Source: a virus. From it: DNA of 26,833 nucleotides. Positions within the stretch are counted from its first letter, which is position 1; the number at the start of each line of letters is the position of its first letter. Of this stretch, positions 13,963-23,727 are shown piece by piece. Under the pieces are notes generated by a model. It worked only from the letters and a program-made list of their open reading frames with translations. It was not told the DNA's origin and ran no database searches. Position numbers and translations under genes: made by a program. The stretch spans positions 1 to 26,833 of IMG/VR virus record IMGVR_UViG_3300024261_002662. One strand, 5' to 3'.

Positions 13963-14934
13963 CTATATTTTGCTTTTTACATAACTTAAGTCTGATTCGT
14001 ACATAATTTTAGCTAGAGATTTAAAATCAGTTTTAGCTTGCCAATTTAATATTTTTTTTGCTTTAGAAGCGTCTCCCAATAAGTGCGGGACTTCGTGGGG
14101 TCGAAATAATCTTTCATCAGTTTCCACAAAATCGCCTATAGAAAGATCAGCAATATCGAATACTTCTTCTAACCAGTTTTTTACTGTATGAGATTTACCA
14201 GTAGCTATAACATAATCGTCAGGCGTTGGATGCTGCATCATTAAGTGCATTGCTCTTACATAATCTTTTGCATATCCCCAGTCTCTCATAGCATCTAAGT
14301 TTCCTAAGCATAGTTTGTCCTGCAACCCTAACTTGATCCTAGCTGCGGCTAGAGTAATTTTTCTAGTTACAAAAGTCTCACCGCGTCGAGGAGATTCATG
14401 ATTGAATAATATTCCGCTACATGCGAATATATTATAAGACTCTCTATAATTTCTAGTAAGATGATGGGAATAAACTTTAGCACATGCGTATGGGCTAGCT
14501 GGTTGTAACTTAGTATTCTCGTTTTGGGGTACCTCGGGATTATCACCAAACATCTCTGAAGAACTTGCTTGATAGAATTTGATATTTCTATTTGTATTTC
14601 TAATAGCTTCAAGCACGTTCGTTACGCCAGTGACTATAGTATTAGTAGTAGATAATGGGGTGTCAAAACTAACGCGAACATGAGATTGAGCTGCTAAATT
14701 ATAGATTTCATCTGGATTATATTTATTGATAATTCGGTAAATTACGCCTGGATCATCTAATTCGAAGTATTCTAAATTAAAGTTTTTATGTGCGAATATG
14801 TGATCAATTCTATCAGTGCAAATTACGCTAGTTCTTCTCTTTAGACCAACAACCCTATATCCTATATTAATAAGATGCTCAGCTAAATAAGAGCCATCTT
14901 GTCCGGTTACGCCGGTTATAATCGCAGTCTTCAA
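13963..14934 (-). CDS. gmd: GDP-mannose 4,6-dehydratase
   Basis: A 323-residue short-chain dehydrogenase that converts GDP-D-mannose to GDP-4-keto-6-deoxymannose, the first step to GDP-L-fucose. The NADP-binding motif TGVTGQDG is at 7-14, the catalytic Ser/Thr-x-Glu at 125-127 ('ASSSEMFG') and the Tyr-x3-Lys pair at Y149/K153 ('PYACAK'). 'NHESPRRGETFVTRKI' is highly characteristic of Gmd. Length is close to normal (about 345-370). The start is a forced TTG at 14934: the protein begins right at the Rossmann motif, an AGGGG Shine-Dalgarno lies seven bases upstream, and it overlaps the fcl stop as TTGA. It directly follows fcl, its pathway partner. Confidence 0.95.
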   Translation of the reverse strand: MKTAIITGVTGQDGSYLAEHLINIGYRVVGLKRRTSVICTDRIDHIFAHKNFNLEYFELDDPGVIYRIINKYNPDEIYNLAAQSHVRVSFDTPLSTTNTIVTGVTNVLEAIRNTNRNIKFYQASSSEMFGDNPEVPQNENTKLQPASPYACAKVYSHHLTRNYRESYNIFACSGILFNHESPRRGETFVTRKITLAAARIKLGLQDKLCLGNLDAMRDWGYAKDYVRAMHLMMQHPTPDDYVIATGKSHTVKNWLEEVFDIADLSIGDFVETDERLFRPHEVPHLLGDASKAKKILNWQAKTDFKSLAKIMYESDLSYVKSKI

Positions 14935-15875
14935 TCAATTCCCCTAATTTTTGGATAGTTTTCTAAAAACCATTTTGTAGTCTTTTTTAAGCCCAGCCTA
15001 AGGTTTGTATAATTGGTATCATATTTTAAACTGTCCATTTTTTCAGAAGATGAGGGTTTTCTATCTTGACCATTCATTTTTTTTGATTCCCATTTTATCC
15101 TCAAATTTAGCTCTAAAATAGAGAGTATGTCGTTAGCAACTTCGCTTATCGAATATTCCCTGCTGCTATTGCCGATGTTGATTACACCTTCAATATTTTT
15201 TTTCTTTAACAAAAAAGCAATAATGTCAGGGATATCGTTAGCAAAAGTAAATTCTCGTTTAGGAGTACCATCTCCCCACAAACTTAAGACACGTTTATTT
15301 TTATTAGAAGCTTCATAAGCTTTTAAAATTATACCAGGTATCACGTGTGAATTGTTGGGATCAAAGTTGTCGTTTATTCCATATAAATTATTTGGAGATA
15401 CACAAAAGTAATTAAAACCTTTTTGTTTGCTAATCGCTTGTGAATGAATATCCAACATTCTTTTAGCGTAAGCATAAAACATATTAGATTTGTGAGGAGA
15501 ACCGTTATGAATATTCGATTCTTGCAACGGGTAAGTAGAATTATCTGGGTAGATGCATGTAGACAAAAAAGATATGCATTTTTTTATTTTTGCATTTTTA
15601 GCAGCATCTAATACATTGGTATTTATCTGGATATTTTCGCTATAAAATTCATGAGGATAAGTCATATTAGCCTTTATACCGCCAACTTTAGCAGCAGTAT
15701 GGACGACAGCATCTACTTTTTGAGAATTAAAAAATTCGAAAGTTTTTCTTCTGTCTAAAAAGTTAACGCCACCTTGCGATGGACTGGGTACTACCTCCCA
15801 ATCGAAACCTTTTATTTTGGAGCTAGAAAAAGCTGTGCCAACCAACCCTGAACCTCCTGTAACTAATACTTTCAT
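14931..15875 (-). CDS. fcl: GDP-L-fucose synthase (epimerase/reductase)
   Basis: A 314-residue enzyme that turns GDP-4-keto-6-deoxymannose into GDP-L-fucose. Its Rossmann motif is GGSGLVG at 7-13. The catalytic Ser and Cys sit in 'LSTCIYP' (S105, C107), the Tyr-x3-Lys pair at Y134/K138 ('FYAYAKRM'), and a conserved His at 177 ('SHVIPG'). The 'GDGTPKREFTFANDI' segment (about 201-215) is typical of GDP-fucose synthases. ATG at 15875 overlaps the cytidylyltransferase stop by 4 nt. Together with Gmd it supplies the donor for the GT11 fucosyltransferase at 22945-23727 in the same cassette. Confidence 0.93.
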   Translation of the reverse strand: MKVLVTGGSGLVGTAFSSSKIKGFDWEVVPSPSQGGVNFLDRRKTFEFFNSQKVDAVVHTAAKVGGIKANMTYPHEFYSENIQINTNVLDAAKNAKIKKCISFLSTCIYPDNSTYPLQESNIHNGSPHKSNMFYAYAKRMLDIHSQAISKQKGFNYFCVSPNNLYGINDNFDPNNSHVIPGIILKAYEASNKNKRVLSLWGDGTPKREFTFANDIPDIIAFLLKKKNIEGVINIGNSSREYSISEVANDILSILELNLRIKWESKKMNGQDRKPSSSEKMDSLKYDTNYTNLRLGLKKTTKWFLENYPKIRGID

Positions 15876-16522
15876 TTTGTTCTTCTTTCGTATAGCATTT
15901 CCGCGATTTCGAAGTCTATTTCTTCGTCAATATCTATCGCTTGAATATTATCGATAATATAGGGGTAGAAATTATTGCCTATAATGCTCTTTTTATTGAT
16001 TAAAATATCTTTAGGGATGACACTTACTGCGAAATTTAAACCCAAATATTCTGGTAAGTCTTGAGATCTAGGGTGGGATGTAGGATCATAATTCAGCGGC
16101 CGGCCCATATGCCACAAATATTCCCTAACAGTGTGCGTTGTTGATATGGAATCATATTTGGCTTCTAAATTATTCCAAAGACTGCATATGTCTTTATAAG
16201 TCTTATCCGTGACTAATGGATTAGTTACATTGACATACATTATTATATCTGAATCTATGTTTTCAGCCATGTTTTTCCAAACTTCGTTCATAGGTATGCT
16301 ACTGGAAGCATAGTAAGCATCCCTCTTAATAGGGGTTGCTCCTAATCTTTTAGCGACGCTCAGCATATAGTCACAATCTGAATTAACGCAAATTTCCTCA
16401 ATAGCATCAATCCTCTTTAACTGATTAATTTTTATCTCTAAGAGTGAAGAATTTGCAAAAGGTCGAATATTCTTATTCGTCACTCTTTGTGATCCCTGTC
16501 TTACTGGTATTAAGGCTTTCAT
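15872..16522 (-). CDS. acylneuraminate-type cytidylyltransferase (CMP-sugar synthetase)
   Basis: A 216-residue enzyme of the NeuA/PseF/LegF family, which joins CTP to a nonulosonic acid to give a CMP-sugar. The nucleotide-binding N-terminus is 'ALIPVRQGSQRVTNKNIRPF' (3-22), with R8 and R13. 'NSD' (47-49) replaces the usual S/T-D-D; 'NVTNPLVT' is at 98-105; and the C-terminal 'DIDEEIDFEIAEML' (197-210) carries the family's conserved acidic residues. Whether the substrate is sialic, legionaminic, pseudaminic or another acid cannot be told. No NeuB-type synthase is in the window, so the sugar acid may come from the host or from another locus. It overlaps the downstream fcl and the upstream GT29-like gene by 4 nt each. 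Confidence 0.85.
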   Translation of the reverse strand: MKALIPVRQGSQRVTNKNIRPFANSSLLEIKINQLKRIDAIEEICVNSDCDYMLSVAKRLGATPIKRDAYYASSSIPMNEVWKNMAENIDSDIIMYVNVTNPLVTDKTYKDICSLWNNLEAKYDSISTTHTVREYLWHMGRPLNYDPTSHPRSQDLPEYLGLNFAVSVIPKDILINKKSIIGNNFYPYIIDNIQAIDIDEEIDFEIAEMLYERRTK

Positions 16523-17313
16523 GATTGATTTAAAGACTCCTTAAAACTTTCATATTTTTTATCGCTTAAAAATTCTTTAAGCTTCTCGTCAACACAAATT
16601 CTATCGTCTTTTCTAAAAATGTTATACTTGAAATATTTGAATTGTAAATCTGGATTGTGTCGATCTAGCTTTCCTTCTGCAGTTTTTCCGTCATGTGTTT
16701 TTTCCCAATCTTCGATTGTTTCCTTAGAATAAAGCGAATTTAAATAGTTTTCCTTGTATAAGGAGCGATAAAAATCTATTCCCGTTATGTAGAGCTCTCG
16801 AAGAGGCAGACTAACTAAATCTATGATAGCAGAAAACCCCCCGTTGGGACGTAAAGTCTCTTTCCTTATTGACATATAGGGTTCATCCGGTAATATCCTG
16901 ACGTTTGCGTCTTGAGATATCTTTGCTAGGGGGTTAATAAATCTAGAAAAAAACCACTCCGCTTTTGGATAAGTAGAAACAACATACTTGACTTCATTTT
17001 TTAAAATATCTTCTCTTAGCTGAATCGAATTTTGACTCATGGATATTAGCCTTTTGTCGCCATCATCGATTATAATATCACCAGGTAAAACATCGTTAGT
17101 TTCATCATTGTCTGTATATAATACATCAACCCTCGAACCATAAAATTTCCTCATCTCTGGATGAACGTAGAAAGATTTAACTCGGCAAACTATATCATAG
17201 CTATCTATTAAATTTCCCTGTTCTATATCTTGGATAGATTTCGCTGGACCTACTAGAGCTACCTTTTTATCTCTTACGAATTCTACAAAATCTTCATTCC
17301 TAACCAGTGGCAT
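16519..17313 (-). CDS. GT29-like (sialyltransferase-like) glycosyltransferase
   Basis: A 264-residue protein with two segments resembling the GT29 sialyl motifs. Motif-L-like, about 17-66: 'KVALVGPAKSI', 'LIDSYDIVCRVK', 'YGSRVDVLY'. Motif-S-like, about 156-182: 'PNGGFSAIIDLVSLPLRELY' then 'ITGIDFY'. A later 'HNPDLQ' (H219) is in the place of the HxxxxE motif, with Q instead of E. GT29 enzymes use CMP-sialic acid. Here the gene lies between two CMP-sugar synthetase genes, KdsB-like before it and NeuA-like after it, which fits a CMP-sugar donor. It starts 1 nt from the KdsB stop. No membrane anchor is visible, unlike eukaryotic GT29. Confidence 0.7.
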   Translation of the reverse strand: MPLVRNEDFVEFVRDKKVALVGPAKSIQDIEQGNLIDSYDIVCRVKSFYVHPEMRKFYGSRVDVLYTDNDETNDVLPGDIIIDDGDKRLISMSQNSIQLREDILKNEVKYVVSTYPKAEWFFSRFINPLAKISQDANVRILPDEPYMSIRKETLRPNGGFSAIIDLVSLPLRELYITGIDFYRSLYKENYLNSLYSKETIEDWEKTHDGKTAEGKLDRHNPDLQFKYFKYNIFRKDDRICVDEKLKEFLSDKKYESFKESLNQS

Positions 17314-18062
17314 TAGATACTCCTAATTTTTTCTAGAAAAATTTTGTCTTTTTTTAGCTTTTCTTCTATTAACTTCAAATCGCTATAAGTGTCTAGTGAA
17401 ATACAATCATCTTCGACTATTTGACCGACTATTTTATAACCGTTTTCTAAAAGTCTTAAGTGTTCGTGATCTTCTATTTTTTCTAAACTAGTTTTTTCCA
17501 TGTTATAATAGTCTAAAATAGTCTCTTTTTTAAAAGCCATCAAGTGATAAGCTTTCAACATTGATTTAATCTTGTTCTTGGCATTAGAAGGTATATCATT
17601 TCTGGAAATGTACATTAGTTCCATTGCTTTATTAAAAACTACTTTAAAATCTGAAGGAGAATTAAATTTATCAAATTTAATCGCTAATATGCTAGCGGCT
17701 GCTTGTTTATTCCGCACTAAAACATTTATACTTTTTTGAATAGAATCTGGGTTTAAGAGTATTTCATCGCCATTTATTAGTACATAGTAATCATAGTCAC
17801 CATATGCTTTTACGACTTCGTACATTCTCTCTGTGCCGTTCTTATGCGATTTGCTAGTTAAGATAGAGTTTCCGCCAAAAGAATCTATTAAGTTAGAAAC
17901 TATGATGTCATCAGTGGCTACTACTAAATCGTCTAGCGAATTTGATAATTTTGCTCTCTTGTATACATGCTCTATTAAAGGAATTCCAAAAACTTTTTTC
18001 AAAGGCTTTTGTTTTATTCTGCTTGATTCTAACCTAGACGGTATTATTCCCAGTATTTTCAT
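17313..18062 (-). CDS. kdsB: 3-deoxy-manno-octulosonate cytidylyltransferase (KdsB-like)
   Basis: A 249-residue enzyme of the KdsB family, which makes CMP-Kdo or a related CMP-ulosonate from CTP. Conserved features are 'IIPSRLESSRIKQKPL' (6-21; R10, K19), 'DDLVVATDD' (44-52), 'SHKNGTERMYEV' (72-83), the metal-site 'NGDE' (97-100), 'LEKIEDHEHLRLLENGYKI' (about 191-209) and D224 in 'SLDTYSDL'. The length matches bacterial KdsB (about 248). It overlaps the upstream aldolase stop by 4 nt, which hints that the aldolase makes its substrate. The 'NGDE' segment replaces the usual 'QGDEP', so the substrate may differ from Kdo. Confidence 0.9.
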   Translation of the reverse strand: MKILGIIPSRLESSRIKQKPLKKVFGIPLIEHVYKRAKLSNSLDDLVVATDDIIVSNLIDSFGGNSILTSKSHKNGTERMYEVVKAYGDYDYYVLINGDEILLNPDSIQKSINVLVRNKQAAASILAIKFDKFNSPSDFKVVFNKAMELMYISRNDIPSNAKNKIKSMLKAYHLMAFKKETILDYYNMEKTSLEKIEDHEHLRLLENGYKIVGQIVEDDCISLDTYSDLKLIEEKLKKDKIFLEKIRSI

Positions 18063-19588
18063 GGTAGATAGTTAAAAACAGCATCTTGGACTAAAGGCTC
18101 ATATTTTGTTTGTGTAAGGGAAATCAAACTAATATTTTTATTTTCACCAAAGTTATAAAATATTTCTGTATTTTCTTCAAAGGATTCTAGTTCTTTTATA
18201 GAAAGGTTCTTTTCTTCATAACCATCATATCCAACAACAAATACATCTTCGGCTTTTACTTCTAATGCTATTTGAACTGCTATACCTGTATGAGATTTTC
18301 CATAGATTTTAGATATCGATCTCTGTTTTAAGAAGTAAGTTTTATCAAATGCTTTTTCCGGTACATATATTTCAATTTCGCTGGGCAGTGGTGCTAAGAT
18401 AAAACTTGAGTTTTTTATATCAATTTCATCTAAAATGCTTTCTATCCTTTTGCCTTCGTTACCAGCAATGCAAAAAAGCTGCTTATTATCAACTTTAGAG
18501 AATATCTTTGCATTTCTAGCAGAGGCGTGGATAATAACTGCTTTTGGATTATTTTTTAAAAAATTTAGAATTGATGACGCGTGGTCTTTCACGGATTTTC
18601 CACCCCCAACTAATAAAACTTGGTGATAAGTTTCAGGCTTGAAATCTTCGTATTTTTTTTCATAAATAAAGCCATTTTTTAAAGTCTTAATAATGGTACC
18701 AAAAGAATGCAAACCCTTAGTTATCCAATCCATTACTTTTTTTTGAGGGAAAGAATTAGCTCCGGAAAACATATAGGGTAAAGAAGTTCCCCAAGCATGT
18801 TCTTTTTTAAGGACATTAAAGTCAGAAACTATCTCGCTTAAGCTATCAAAATCAACTTCGAGGTTTTTCTTCTTGTTTAATACAGTCAATAATAATTCGG
18901 TAGATAAGTTACCCGCGCCTCTTCCCATACCCGTCATTGTAGAATCTACTATGCCGGCGCCATTGTCAATAGCTACGAGTGTGTTTGATAAACTCATCTC
19001 CATATTGTTATGGCCATGAAAACCAGCTGTAGATTTTGAAGTTATACTTTCGAAAACTTCGAAAACTTTTTTAACGTCAGCGGGAAACATACTTCCGTAA
19101 GAATCAACAAAATATATATACTCGCATAACTCGTCTAAAGAAGATAATCCCGAAATAAACTCTTTATCTTCTTTCCATTCAGAAGCATACATGATATTCA
19201 AAGCTAACTTAACATTGAATTTTTTTATCTCTTTAGCAATTAAAATGGTTTCTTCAATTTTATCCGGACTTACAGCTATTCTTACTAAATCTATATAGTT
19301 TTCTACCGGTTTTAATATAGAACTAACGTCATCTTTACTTATGCTTTTTTGATTTAACATTATAGATATTTTTTTGCAAGATTTATTTCTAATATCTCTA
19401 AGAACCTCTAAGTTACAAAAAAAATATTTTCCATGATATCCAGGAAGCTTAGGATTTCTATAACCTACTTCGATATAATCTATAGGCAAGTTGTTAGTAC
19501 AATGAATGTACCTTTCTACCAAAGAGTTACTAAAATCCCAGTTGGTATAATAACCACCATCTCTTAAAGTACAGTCAAGAATTTCCAC
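18059..19588 (-). CDS. DRE-TIM (HMG-CoA lyase/DmpG-like) aldolase fused to a C-terminal Rossmann-like domain
   Basis: A 509-residue two-domain protein. Residues 1-300 form an HMGL-like TIM barrel: 'DCTLRDGG' (5-12), 'YIEVGYR' (38-44), metal ligands H191 and H193 ('FHGHNNMEMSLSN') and 'DSTMTGMGRGAGNLSTE' (215-231). The DmpG branch of this superfamily does aldol chemistry on 2-keto acids with pyruvate. Residues about 322-509 begin 'HQVLLVGGGKSVKDHASSIL' and contain 'CIAGNEGKR', 'SHTGIAVQIALEV' and 'VFVVGYDGYEEK'. This looks like a Rossmann-type domain, of unknown role, related in style to sialyltransferase-like or MptE-like folds. A GTG start is forced, because the core motif begins at residue 3. 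Upstream is a GT29-like gene (1-nt overlap), downstream KdsB. The same architecture seems to occur in bacterial surface-polysaccharide loci (from memory). Confidence 0.8.
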   Translation of the reverse strand: MEILDCTLRDGGYYTNWDFSNSLVERYIHCTNNLPIDYIEVGYRNPKLPGYHGKYFFCNLEVLRDIRNKSCKKISIMLNQKSISKDDVSSILKPVENYIDLVRIAVSPDKIEETILIAKEIKKFNVKLALNIMYASEWKEDKEFISGLSSLDELCEYIYFVDSYGSMFPADVKKVFEVFESITSKSTAGFHGHNNMEMSLSNTLVAIDNGAGIVDSTMTGMGRGAGNLSTELLLTVLNKKKNLEVDFDSLSEIVSDFNVLKKEHAWGTSLPYMFSGANSFPQKKVMDWITKGLHSFGTIIKTLKNGFIYEKKYEDFKPETYHQVLLVGGGKSVKDHASSILNFLKNNPKAVIIHASARNAKIFSKVDNKQLFCIAGNEGKRIESILDEIDIKNSSFILAPLPSEIEIYVPEKAFDKTYFLKQRSISKIYGKSHTGIAVQIALEVKAEDVFVVGYDGYEEKNLSIKELESFEENTEIFYNFGENKNISLISLTQTKYEPLVQDAVFNYLP

Positions 19589-20277
19589 TAGTTTTTCCAG
19601 TTTACTAAATCTTTTTCGACAAGCTCTCTAATTATGATCATCTCGGTTTCTACTTCATGGCCCATAGCATTTACTTGTTCCCAACCAAAGCCATGTGAAT
19701 GGCCTTGACCCCAGAAATGTTGGTACTTATCTCCTAAAACATTATCAAACCCGTAAACATTGGGTTTGACGCCAGAATCTACACAGATTAAAATAGCCCT
19801 TAAGCCAATCCTAGGATGTACGCGATATTCTATTCCATGAGGTGGCCACTCTTCTCGATGAATCACTTTTAATACTTCTTCACTAAATTTAGTAGATATT
19901 CCTAGTTTTTCTAAAATTTTATTAGCCCATCTTGAATCACCTTTTTCATGATCTAAAGAAAAAACATTTTCGAAATTTTTCCAAACTTTTCTGCGCGGTG
20001 GGTGGTAAGCATGCTTGCCAAAGCAAATTATATCTTCAGAACTTGAACCAACATATTTATCATAGTTGGAATCATTCACTAATCTAACAGTTGTTTTTTC
20101 GCCTGTAATAGGAGTGCCAGTAGGGGCGTCATTGAATCTTATAATAGAATCGTGATTATCTATTTCCCTGCCCCTGAGTACCCTGTTAAGGGATGGGCCA
20201 GAACCAACAATAGCTACTGAATCTCCAACTGACAAAGAATTTTTATTTTCATTATCGATAATATGCTTTAATTTCAA
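19588..20277 (-). CDS. GT29-like sialyltransferase homologue
   Basis: A 229-residue protein with the cleaner of the two sialyltransferase signatures. Motif L is at about 20-70: 'SVAIVGSGPSLNRVLRGREI', 'DNHDSIIRFNDAPTGTP', 'GEKTTVRLVN'. Motif S is at about 154-178: 'HPRIGLRAILICVDSGVKPN' then 'VYGFD'. H187 in 'QHFWGQ' stands at motif III, and H195-x4-E200 ('HGFGWE') at motif VS. No transmembrane anchor is present. GT29 enzymes use CMP-sialic acid or a similar CMP-ulosonic acid. The start is a forced TTG at 20277 with an AGAGAG Shine-Dalgarno a few bases upstream. It sits between the SIS-HAD fusion and the aldolase. Confidence 0.8.
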   Translation of the reverse strand: MKLKHIIDNENKNSLSVGDSVAIVGSGPSLNRVLRGREIDNHDSIIRFNDAPTGTPITGEKTTVRLVNDSNYDKYVGSSSEDIICFGKHAYHPPRRKVWKNFENVFSLDHEKGDSRWANKILEKLGISTKFSEEVLKVIHREEWPPHGIEYRVHPRIGLRAILICVDSGVKPNVYGFDNVLGDKYQHFWGQGHSHGFGWEQVNAMGHEVETEMIIIRELVEKDLVNWKN

Positions 20278-20278
20278 A

Positions 20279-21253
20279 TTACTCTCTCAAACTTTCGATA
20301 TCACTTAAAACAGAATCCCAACTATTAAACCTTATAGCTTTATCATCTACATAAGCTACTGCTCTTGGTTTTTCTGCTGTGACTTTTGTGACAAAAGAAT
20401 CCATATCGTATTTTTCCAACCAGTCCCAAATTAGTTCAATCCCGGTTTTACCATTGATTAATCCGCGATCCGGCTTAGCCTTACAAGTGTAAACAATGAC
20501 GTTATATTCTTTAGATAACTTTTCTAGTGCGTCTCTAGAACCTTTTATTGGATTGTCATATATAGTTCCATCAAAAAATCCTTTTGAATTTTGATGAATA
20601 ACGCCATCGAAATCAATGCCTATATTGACACTTTCATCAGGAAATGCATGCATTCTGGTAGAACTAGATTTTCGATTAAGTTTTTCTAATTCTTCCGGAA
20701 TGTTTTTCCCTATTGGTGGGCATTCCCTACCAGAACCATGAGTTAGCTGATACTGCAGTAACAATGTTAAAACTTCGCATGTATGGTAATATTCTGTTTC
20801 TAATAAAACCGTAGTTAAGCCGGGAATCTTTGTAGACATTTGCTGGCCAGTTACTAAAGCAGTTTGCATACCATTATCAGATGCCCATTGTAGTGCTTTT
20901 ATGACATCATTAGATCTCCCCGAAGATGATATGCCATAAACCAATGATTGCTTCATATCAGATGAATTCTTATTTGTGGTGCGATGCTTTAACCAGCAAA
21001 CCATCCATTGATCAAAATTTGTATCATTGATCAAGCTAGTAGCAACGCATGCGCTACTTGGCGATTGCGCATTTTTTTGCCCGTTTGAAAGTCGGGTAAT
21101 ATCGACTGCGGTATGGTCAGCAATTGCTAAATTGCCTCCATGTCCCAAAACGTAGATATCGTGACAATTATTAAACTTTTCTTGAAACTGTTTCCAAGAA
21201 GAAGAGTTTACGGTTGTAGCAAATTTTTCTTCAATATTTTCGATATCTAGCAT
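20279..21253 (-). CDS. SIS sugar-phosphate isomerase (GmhA-like) fused to HAD-family phosphatase
   Basis: A 324-residue fusion. Residues 1-180 are a SIS domain resembling GmhA: 'YVLGHGGNLAIADHTAVDIT' (34-53), 'YGISSSGRSNDVIKAL' (106-121) and 'YYHTCEVLTLLLQYQL' (155-170). Such enzymes convert a ketose phosphate to an aldose phosphate. Residues 205-324 are a HAD domain: motif I 'IDFDGV' (D214, D216), motif II T256, motif III K295 in 'TAEKPRAVAYVDDKAIRF', and motif IV D303/D304. This HAD type is common as a stand-alone bacterial and phage protein of unknown substrate. Fused to an isomerase it would plausibly remove the phosphate from the isomerase product, as GmhB or KdsC do in their pathways. 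ATG start at 21253, 2 nt after the GT4 stop. Confidence 0.85.
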   Translation of the reverse strand: MLDIENIEEKFATTVNSSSWKQFQEKFNNCHDIYVLGHGGNLAIADHTAVDITRLSNGQKNAQSPSSACVATSLINDTNFDQWMVCWLKHRTTNKNSSDMKQSLVYGISSSGRSNDVIKALQWASDNGMQTALVTGQQMSTKIPGLTTVLLETEYYHTCEVLTLLLQYQLTHGSGRECPPIGKNIPEELEKLNRKSSSTRMHAFPDESVNIGIDFDGVIHQNSKGFFDGTIYDNPIKGSRDALEKLSKEYNVIVYTCKAKPDRGLINGKTGIELIWDWLEKYDMDSFVTKVTAEKPRAVAYVDDKAIRFNSWDSVLSDIESLRE

Positions 21254-22207: not shown

Positions 22208-22948
22208 TTAATTACCGCTACCTTCGAATCGAGGAAATGTTTTTGGATCTTTATCTAAGTGAATCATTTTTACATCATAATAATTCCAAACAAAATCATA
22301 CCCGGGAGATTCTGGAGTTGCATATCCAGCGCCCATGGTTTTTACATCATCAATATTTTCTAAGAAAAATTTATTCATGTGAGACTCATCATGCCATTTT
22401 GCTATAATGTTATTCGAAGTATCTATATCTACGTTTTTACTACATTCAGAAACCATTGACAATATAGATTTCGTCTCTCCTCCCCAAAAACACCCTTGTC
22501 TATAAACTGAGATGTCATATCCTTCTTTAAAAGCGAAAGCGGTTGAATTAGCATTATCTTCAAAAGTTCCCTGTTTATCAATAAACCCTGGGTGTTGGAC
22601 TGATATGAACTTATATTCTTCTTCATCTTCAAAGAAATCGGAAAATTTCATTTCGTCTACTGGCCAGAGGTCAGCATCAATGAAAAATGTATAGTCATAT
22701 TTCTCAAGTTTACTCGAGATAGATTCGATAAATTTAAATCTATGTAATGTGATGTATGGCCAACCTACATGCTGGATTTCAATAGTTTCGATATCTGGGC
22801 TTTTTAAAGAAGGATCGTTTATTTGATCTGTAAAAGCAAATATCTTTTTTTCCAAATTTGGGCAAAAGAATTTATTGACGCGTCTTCTGAAGCCATCTAG
22901 AAATCCTATATAGGGACCGGTACCGATAAAAATTATTGCTATCTTCAA
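22208..22948 (-). CDS. glycosyltransferase family 6 (ABO/alpha-1,3-Gal/GalNAc transferase-like)
   Basis: A GT6-family retaining GT-A enzyme, 246 residues from a TTG at 22948 (then KIAIIFIGTGPYIGFL). Signatures: 'HVGWPYITLHRF' (about 60-71), 'FIDADLWP' with a DXD motif (91-93), 'QHPGF' (about 118-122), 'YRQGCFWGG' (about 149-157) and 'KWHDESHMNKFF' (about 184-195), the hallmark of ABO-type and alpha-1,3-galactosyltransferases. GT6 enzymes add Gal or GalNAc alpha-1,3 to a beta-galactoside, often one carrying alpha-1,2-fucose. The TTG overlaps the fucosyltransferase stop as TTGA, with GGGG seven bases upstream. The frame is open to 23011, but the extra 21 codons lie inside the upstream gene and look spurious. 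The DXD (rather than the NXN reported in several bacterial GT6) suggests metal dependence. Confidence 0.9.
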   Translation of the reverse strand: MKIAIIFIGTGPYIGFLDGFRRRVNKFFCPNLEKKIFAFTDQINDPSLKSPDIETIEIQHVGWPYITLHRFKFIESISSKLEKYDYTFFIDADLWPVDEMKFSDFFEDEEEYKFISVQHPGFIDKQGTFEDNANSTAFAFKEGYDISVYRQGCFWGGETKSILSMVSECSKNVDIDTSNNIIAKWHDESHMNKFFLENIDDVKTMGAGYATPESPGYDFVWNYYDVKMIHLDKDPKTFPRFEGSGN

Positions 22949-23727
22949 ATCAAACCCCAACCTTGAATATAAATTGTGTTCCATTCCTTTGGTCCATCCG
23001 GACCAAACCAATTGTGAGGTGCAATAACAGATTGATAGTTACCTAAAACAGCTCCCCACCAGGAAAAAGATGAATTAGAAATAATATGTGCTGCTGCTTT
23101 TGTCATCATACAAAGATCAATTTCAGGAGAGTTTCCTTCTACTAGAACAGAATTTTCGTTAACTAAGTTATCTCTTATCCATTGATGATCATCACCGAAC
23201 ATTATGAACTTGACATTGCCATTAGTTACTCGCATTATTTCACTTTTAGCTTTATTGTAGTAATCTAAGCTGCATGGAGGATGGTAATTACTTTTTTCTA
23301 AATAATCGCCTCTCCTAACGTGTAGAGAACATAAAGGACGTCCATCGAAATATTTTTGCATTTCAAACATCGCAGCAAGATTTATATCTTCTTTAAAGGT
23401 AAAAGTATTCTTAATCATTTCAAAACAGTTGCCAAAATAAACTGGAGATTGAAAATATCCTCTTAAATCGGTAAAGTCATCTACTAAAAATAGACTTGGA
23501 TGAAATTGAAAACTTGGCTCTTCGTAAACGAATTTAAGTTTATCGACATCTTTTTGAGTTAAAATATCAACATTATTCATGTTGAAAACTTTCCAAAGAT
23601 CTACATTTTCATTATTTTGTAAAGCCCAACTATATCCCCTCGTAAAAGCAGCTGTGGCTAAAGCAGCATATTGAAACATTTGATTTCCTAATCTACCATT
23701 TTGGCCGATTTGTAAACTAGTTAGCAT
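22945..23727 (-). CDS. alpha-1,2-fucosyltransferase (GT11)
   Basis: A 260-residue GT11 enzyme with all the main motifs: 'GRLGNQMFQYA' (11-21), the GDP-fucose-binding 'HVRRGDY' (136-142), 'MFGDDHQWI' (about 176-184) and 'ISNSSFSWWGA' (216-226). GT11 transfers L-fucose from GDP-fucose in alpha-1,2 linkage, usually to galactose, making H-antigen-like structures. Its donor can be made by Gmd and Fcl at the other end of the same cassette. The ATG at 23727 overlaps the GT2 gene by 11 nt, and its stop overlaps the GT6 start. No signal peptide or membrane anchor; a cytoplasmic soluble enzyme. Confidence 0.95.
   Translation of the reverse strand: MLTSLQIGQNGRLGNQMFQYAALATAAFTRGYSWALQNNENVDLWKVFNMNNVDILTQKDVDKLKFVYEEPSFQFHPSLFLVDDFTDLRGYFQSPVYFGNCFEMIKNTFTFKEDINLAAMFEMQKYFDGRPLCSLHVRRGDYLEKSNYHPPCSLDYYNKAKSEIMRVTNGNVKFIMFGDDHQWIRDNLVNENSVLVEGNSPEIDLCMMTKAAAHIISNSSFSWWGAVLGNYQSVIAPHNWFGPDGPKEWNTIYIQGWGLI

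Follow-up and report, generated by a model that had tools for sequence, protein, structure and literature searches.

A gene pair of a virus and of Bacteroidota with a probable role in making and activating an unusual acidic sugar

How might a virus assemble a CMP-activated ulosonic acid with an aldolase in the condensing role? The textbook route to Kdo runs through KdsD, the PEP-dependent synthase KdsA, KdsC and KdsB. The DNA analysed here, a virus record of 26,833 nt with baseplate-like genes (IMG/VR IMGVR_UViG_3300024261_002662; hereafter the window), represents all the matching kinds of enzyme, namely a SIS isomerase, a condensing TIM barrel, a HAD phosphatase and a KdsB-family synthetase, but its condensing enzyme is an HMGL-type aldolase and not a PEP-dependent KdsA. 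The phosphatase, the CMP activation and an enzyme of the sialyltransferase family (GT29) also recall the routes to Kdn and other nonulosonic acids; those, however, use a PEP-dependent NeuB-type synthase, and none was recognised in the window. One baseplate-like gene has its nearest phage-collection matches in Flavobacterium phages, a Microcystis phage and an uncultured phage (28% identity). We consider it fairly probable that the aldolase and the KdsB-type protein form a two-enzyme unit that makes and activates a 3-deoxy-2-ulosonic acid, together with a HAD phosphatase and transferases.

Gene calls were simple ORF picks, and profile searches bore out the families that the first-pass annotation had assigned to four neighbouring genes, all on the minus strand. 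A 324-aa protein (20279-21253) joins a GmhA-like SIS isomerase domain to a HAD phosphatase domain, as judged from profiles and viral relatives. The GT29 family protein that follows (19588-20277; PF00777, E=2.5e-11) scores 43.9 bits against a Pfam cut-off of 23, above the threshold of the sialyltransferase profile, and is a candidate CMP-ulosonate transferase. The aldolase gene (18059-19588; HMGL PF00682, E=1.1e-20; HOA subfamily, E=8.7e-29) encodes an HMGL/HOA-like DRE-TIM aldolase domain (residues ~1-310, 18659-19588), delimited by PF00682, the match to the solved structure 3dxi and the alignment, and its stop codon overlaps the start of the synthetase gene by four bases (ATGA). That gene (17313-18062) encodes a 249-aa KdsB-type CMP-ulosonate synthetase (CTP_transf_3, PF02348, E=5e-42), which the tree places in a specialised clade. 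Among the island genes scanned, profile searches gave no kdsA match.

Directly after KdsB, and on the same strand, come a second GT29-like protein (cluster c6; 16519-17313), of which one bacterial relative matches PF00777 with E=4e-10, and another CMP-sugar synthetase, this one PseF-like (15872-16522; PF02348, E=1e-14; PseF TIGR03584, E=1.5e-19, under the equivalog cut-off). These two genes overlap (15872-17313), and both are retained, at 57-58% identity, in a sister island of another viral record, L136. The window also holds a GDP-mannose dehydratase (Gmd), a GDP-fucose-synthase-like gene and a family-6 glycosyltransferase (13963-15875 and 22208-23011), which point to a second activated-sugar route within the island.

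The pairing recurs in bacteria. A scan of bacterial genomes, with loci selected by similarity to the window aldolase, yielded 80 loci with near-full-length relatives, 39-47% identical and nearly all from Bacteroidota. All 80 have a CMP-sugar synthetase no more than three genes away from the aldolase, compared to a mean of 34 and a maximum of 49 in 1000 draws of a random gene from the same loci; clustering at 75% identity leaves 61 loci, again without exception. In 66 of the 80 the synthetase is directly downstream, with a gap of at most 20 bases in 60 and a median gap of 4 bases. The neighbourhood is not due to chance. The partner may be KdsB-like, PseF-like or of a third type, indicating that the partner's function is kept while its family changes. 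In 34 viral contigs, whose loci are related to each other, a single ORF of ~560 aa carries both an HMGL-type aldolase domain and a KdsB domain (L003:3897-5576, L005:4682-6364, L011:7998-9692 and others among L149-L182). Operon and gene fusion are thus two kinds of association that tie the aldolase to CMP synthetases. The coupling proposed in the first-pass annotation therefore recurs well outside the window, and at none of the bacterial loci do the aldolase homologues stand apart from a CMP-sugar synthetase. Near one viral fusion we also observe separate genes resembling the kinase and adenylyltransferase halves of HldE (L005:7015-8161).

The other neighbours of the bacterial aldolases bear on the rest of the pathway. 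A HAD gene lies within six genes in 62 of the 80 loci; 18 loci are without one, and six of these (L071, L072, L075, L076, L081 and L092) have a KDG-kinase-like PfkB gene. An HpcH/HpaI aldolase is present in nine of the 80. Both the KDG-kinase-like and the HpcH/HpaI neighbours belong to families that act on 2-keto-3-deoxy acids, and this favours a 3-deoxy-2-ulosonic acid as the product. No kdsA relative was seen in any of the 80 loci; kdsA is carried elsewhere in the genome by all eight of the genomes tested, so that the condensing enzyme could be encoded there. A NeuB-like gene is also found in 13 of the 80 loci, which likewise counts against our reading. The aldolase is patchy rather than universal, being present in 5 of 198 drawn Bacteroidota genomes, one of the five being the reference.

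The SIS-HAD protein fits this picture less tightly. Its SIS half matches PF01380 (E=1.8e-4, under the Pfam cut-off) and gmhA TIGR00441 (E=5e-8), and its HAD half matches phrog_1238 (E=1.6e-13), with DFD, T, K and DD motifs invariant in eight relatives. Viral relatives, 37-68% identical, lie beside CMP synthetases and HpcH/HpaI aldolases: of 41 dereplicated viral loci, 17 have an adjacent CMP synthetase, compared to 4.6 for random genes, and 17 an adjacent pyruvate-type aldolase, compared to 1.9, with none of 2000 draws as high in either case. This enrichment suggests that SIS-HAD belongs with CMP-ulosonate modules, of which it is a probable accessory. A recurrent viral gene order, GT29, PseF-like, HpcH/HpaI aldolase, SIS-HAD (L188, L192, L199, L207-L209, L215 and L235), forms a parallel module that employs another pyruvate-type aldolase, and outside the window the aldolase partner of SIS-HAD is of the HpcH/HpaI type. 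Apart from the window, no SIS-HAD fusion lies near an HMGL aldolase among the 41 loci, and in 23 of them no aldolase was recognised within four genes. We rejected the idea that an aldolase is a constant companion of SIS-HAD: 15 viral records that carry SIS-HAD with no aldolase close by, and that may be fragments, have no HpcH/HpaI or HMGL gene, and only two of them have NeuB. A role as a GmhA/GmhB heptose enzyme was rejected as well, given that the similarity to GmhA is weak and that L136 has a separate SIS gene, so that SIS-HAD is probably not the GmhA of that island. The separate gene lies beside transaldolase-family and GHMP-kinase genes (L136:10834-12957), a possible heptose-synthesis block.

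The first-pass annotation had considered that the isomerase and the phosphatase might act first, leaving a free aldose to the aldolase. We find no support for this: of the 80 bacterial aldolase loci, 79 gave no SIS match, and around the viral aldolase-KdsB fusions the HAD part turned up by itself (23 matches in 34 loci). SIS is therefore not an obligatory step, as opposed to its place in the Kdo pathway, and in the window it is fused to HAD. Of the proposed single route, the recurrent aldolase-KdsB pair is supported; SIS-HAD, found elsewhere beside PseF-like synthetases and HpcH/HpaI aldolases, may instead serve the PseF branch.

The alternative that survives best takes up this last point, with two overlapping pathways in the window: a Bacteroidota-like CMP-ulosonate unit would consist of the aldolase and KdsB, and a second CMP-sugar branch of SIS-HAD together with the PseF-like synthetase (15872-16522) and its GT29 protein. 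It is compatible with the core of our reading and differs from it on SIS-HAD. L136 speaks for it, having SIS-HAD, GT29-like and PseF-like genes while the HMGL aldolase is absent from its 66-kb record and KdsB from the 13 kb read, as does the PseF-like bias of SIS-HAD, whose CMP synthetase within four genes is PseF-like in 27 and KdsB-like in 2 of the 41 loci. On the other hand, the window's SIS-HAD is only two genes upstream of the aldolase, no other condensing enzyme is recognised in the 26.8-kb contig, and HAD-only relatives sit near the viral aldolase-KdsB fusions. We give this alternative a little less than an even chance. With L136 retaining SIS-HAD, GT29-like and PseF-like genes without the aldolase, the window has the appearance of a SIS-HAD/PseF island that received a Bacteroidota-like GT29-aldolase-KdsB block. 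The module is not virus-specific: its source is likely bacterial clusters, the window KdsB being 63% identical to the KdsB of a Bacteroidota MAG.

To return to the aldolase-KdsB unit, the synthetase itself appears specialised. A full-length KdsB match is present in 27/27 genomes checked, and the 30 KdsB loci recovered comprise 12 that are the cluster copies themselves and 18 canonical copies distinct from them. In the tree a single group (support 97/91) holds the 18 canonical copies, which come from the same genomes, and the cluster copies and the viral fusions fall outside it; the window copy, on a long branch, groups with four of the bacterial cluster copies (100/100). Unlike the KdsB of the Kdo pathway, the window protein thus lies outside the housekeeping clade and has an altered His site. 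The His of the KHxGIYAY motif, invariant in canonical KdsB, is replaced by Ala in the window protein (residue 171) and its group, and by Gln in the remaining cluster and fusion copies. The window protein retains K19, D99, E100, R154 and D224; K19, D99 and D224 have CTP and metal roles, with two metal-binding Asp and a conserved Lys, as described in PMC3149649. With these three residues and its PF02348 match the protein belongs to the KdsB/CMP-sugar synthetase family, although it passes only the subfamily model NF003952 and scores 135.3 bits against the 155.2 of the KdsB equivalog TIGR00466. The changed His falls in the C-terminal, Kdo-binding domain (PMC3149649), and this position suggests a role for it. 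The separate clade and the His change are what an altered sugar substrate would look like, short of proof, and they make it less likely that the enzyme accepts only Kdo. Among the viral contigs scanned with the window KdsB we found no relative.

The aldolase domain is closely related to a protein of solved structure. Over its first 305 residues it shares 48% identity with 3dxi (phmmer E=3e-98), the Bacteroides vulgatus 'putative aldolase' BVU_2661, a member of the same family whose function is unassigned. Residues R9, D10, H191 and H193 are invariant in the 30 sequences aligned and correspond to the Arg-Asp and HxH of 4-hydroxy-2-oxovalerate aldolases (HOA; DmpG/BphI, TIGR03217). With this Arg-Asp motif, the HxH metal ligands and the TIM barrel, the domain is a DRE-TIM metallolyase of the HMGL-like kind, and it shares the fold and the TLRDG and HxH motifs with DmpG/BphI and 3dxi. 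It differs from DmpG/BphI in having GGYYTN for GSH: where the catalytic His follows LRDGS in HOA, the family has an invariant Tyr13, and the score is far under the HOA equivalog (89 bits against 286). The family also differs in its setting, with a Maf-like C-terminal domain or a KdsB fusion and a glycan-locus context. With Tyr in place of His, the reaction might be something other than a pyruvate aldol. Pyruvate is the likely donor, the solved relatives listed by Foldseek being, as we take it, enzymes of 2-keto acids. Annotated phages searched for the aldolase gave weak HMGL matches at most.

The HOA-like sequence of the aldolase, and the Kdo that the likely hosts produce, would also suit a second alternative, in which the aldolase is degradative or makes a short, HOA-like keto acid while KdsB does no more than activate the host's Kdo for a surface glycan that the phage modifies. 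We judge this improbable, considering the synthetase neighbour at every bacterial locus, the fusion in the viral contigs, and a KdsB whose clade and site are unlike those of the canonical enzyme.

The aldolase further carries a C-terminal domain of ~200 aa that was absent from the first-pass annotation (residues ~310-509, 18059-18661, minus strand), delimited by an AlphaFold model and Foldseek. The model has a pLDDT of 93.6, and its best Foldseek match is the Maf flagellin glycosyltransferase 5mu5 (E=8e-5, TMq 0.65), followed by HPPK 8sd5 and MptE. The likeness to Maf is one of predicted fold, the domain being 12% identical and, in contrast to 5mu5, fused to an aldolase. Maf enzymes transfer nonulosonic acids, and one uses Neu5Ac and Kdo donors (PMC11339370). 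A transferase role for the domain is only a proposal, HPPK/MptE being the second fold match. That the protein is just a carrier of this transferase or kinase, its TIM barrel having no aldolase function, would agree with the replaced catalytic His and with several invariant sites in the C-terminal domain, but is very unlikely given that the metal-site and Arg residues are invariant in 30/30 sequences and that the viral fusions, with KdsB in place of the C-terminal domain, retain the R, D and HxH residues of the aldolase.

On the aldolase-KdsB reading, the metal-dependent DRE-TIM domain would join pyruvate to an aldose, which is probably phosphorylated, and so form a 3-deoxy-2-ulosonic acid. The phosphate would be taken off by a HAD phosphatase, perhaps the C-terminal half of the 20279-21253 product in the window and a separate HAD gene product in Bacteroidota. 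The specialised KdsB would put CMP from CTP onto the acid, and the GT29-like proteins, perhaps with the Maf-like domain of the aldolase, would move the activated sugar onto a surface glycan. The scheme rests on protein families, conserved catalytic residues, operon coupling, gene fusion, clade separation and the predicted C-terminal fold, from which we infer the pyruvate donor, the phosphorylation state, the order of steps, the role of SIS and the identity of the product. An aldol reaction with a C5 aldose would give a Kdo-like octulosonate, with a C6 aldose a Kdn-like nonulosonate and with glyceraldehyde a KDG-like hexulosonate. A phosphatase-first order that leaves a free aldose is possible, but one like that of KdsC, passing through a phosphorylated intermediate, is at least equally likely. 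That all four genes form one pathway is a weaker claim than the aldolase-KdsB core. For the broader view, that Bacteroidota and viruses have a distinct recurrent route in which pyruvate aldolases (HMGL, or HpcH/HpaI in related viral modules) replace PEP-dependent synthases and yield undescribed CMP-ulosonic acids, the aldolase being fused to an activating or transferring enzyme, we see evenly balanced chances.

To our knowledge, the CMP-ulosonic acids of known biosynthesis (Kdo, sialic acids and relatives) are all made by PEP-dependent synthases, and we found no description of an aldolase-based route in the open-access papers searched. The families are known and their logic is that of CMP-ulosonate synthesis; what would be new is the aldolase in the condensing role. 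In sum, the virus shares with surface-sugar clusters of Bacteroidota a gene pair whose products probably make an unusual acidic sugar and activate it. If this is true, the synthesis of CMP-ulosonic acids would have been solved in a different enzymatic way, by a conserved pyruvate-aldolase route, and the orphan family of 3dxi would gain a function. It would also predict unknown acidic sugars in the surface glycans of Bacteroidota, and would mean that viruses carry a ulosonate module, sometimes as a single fused protein.
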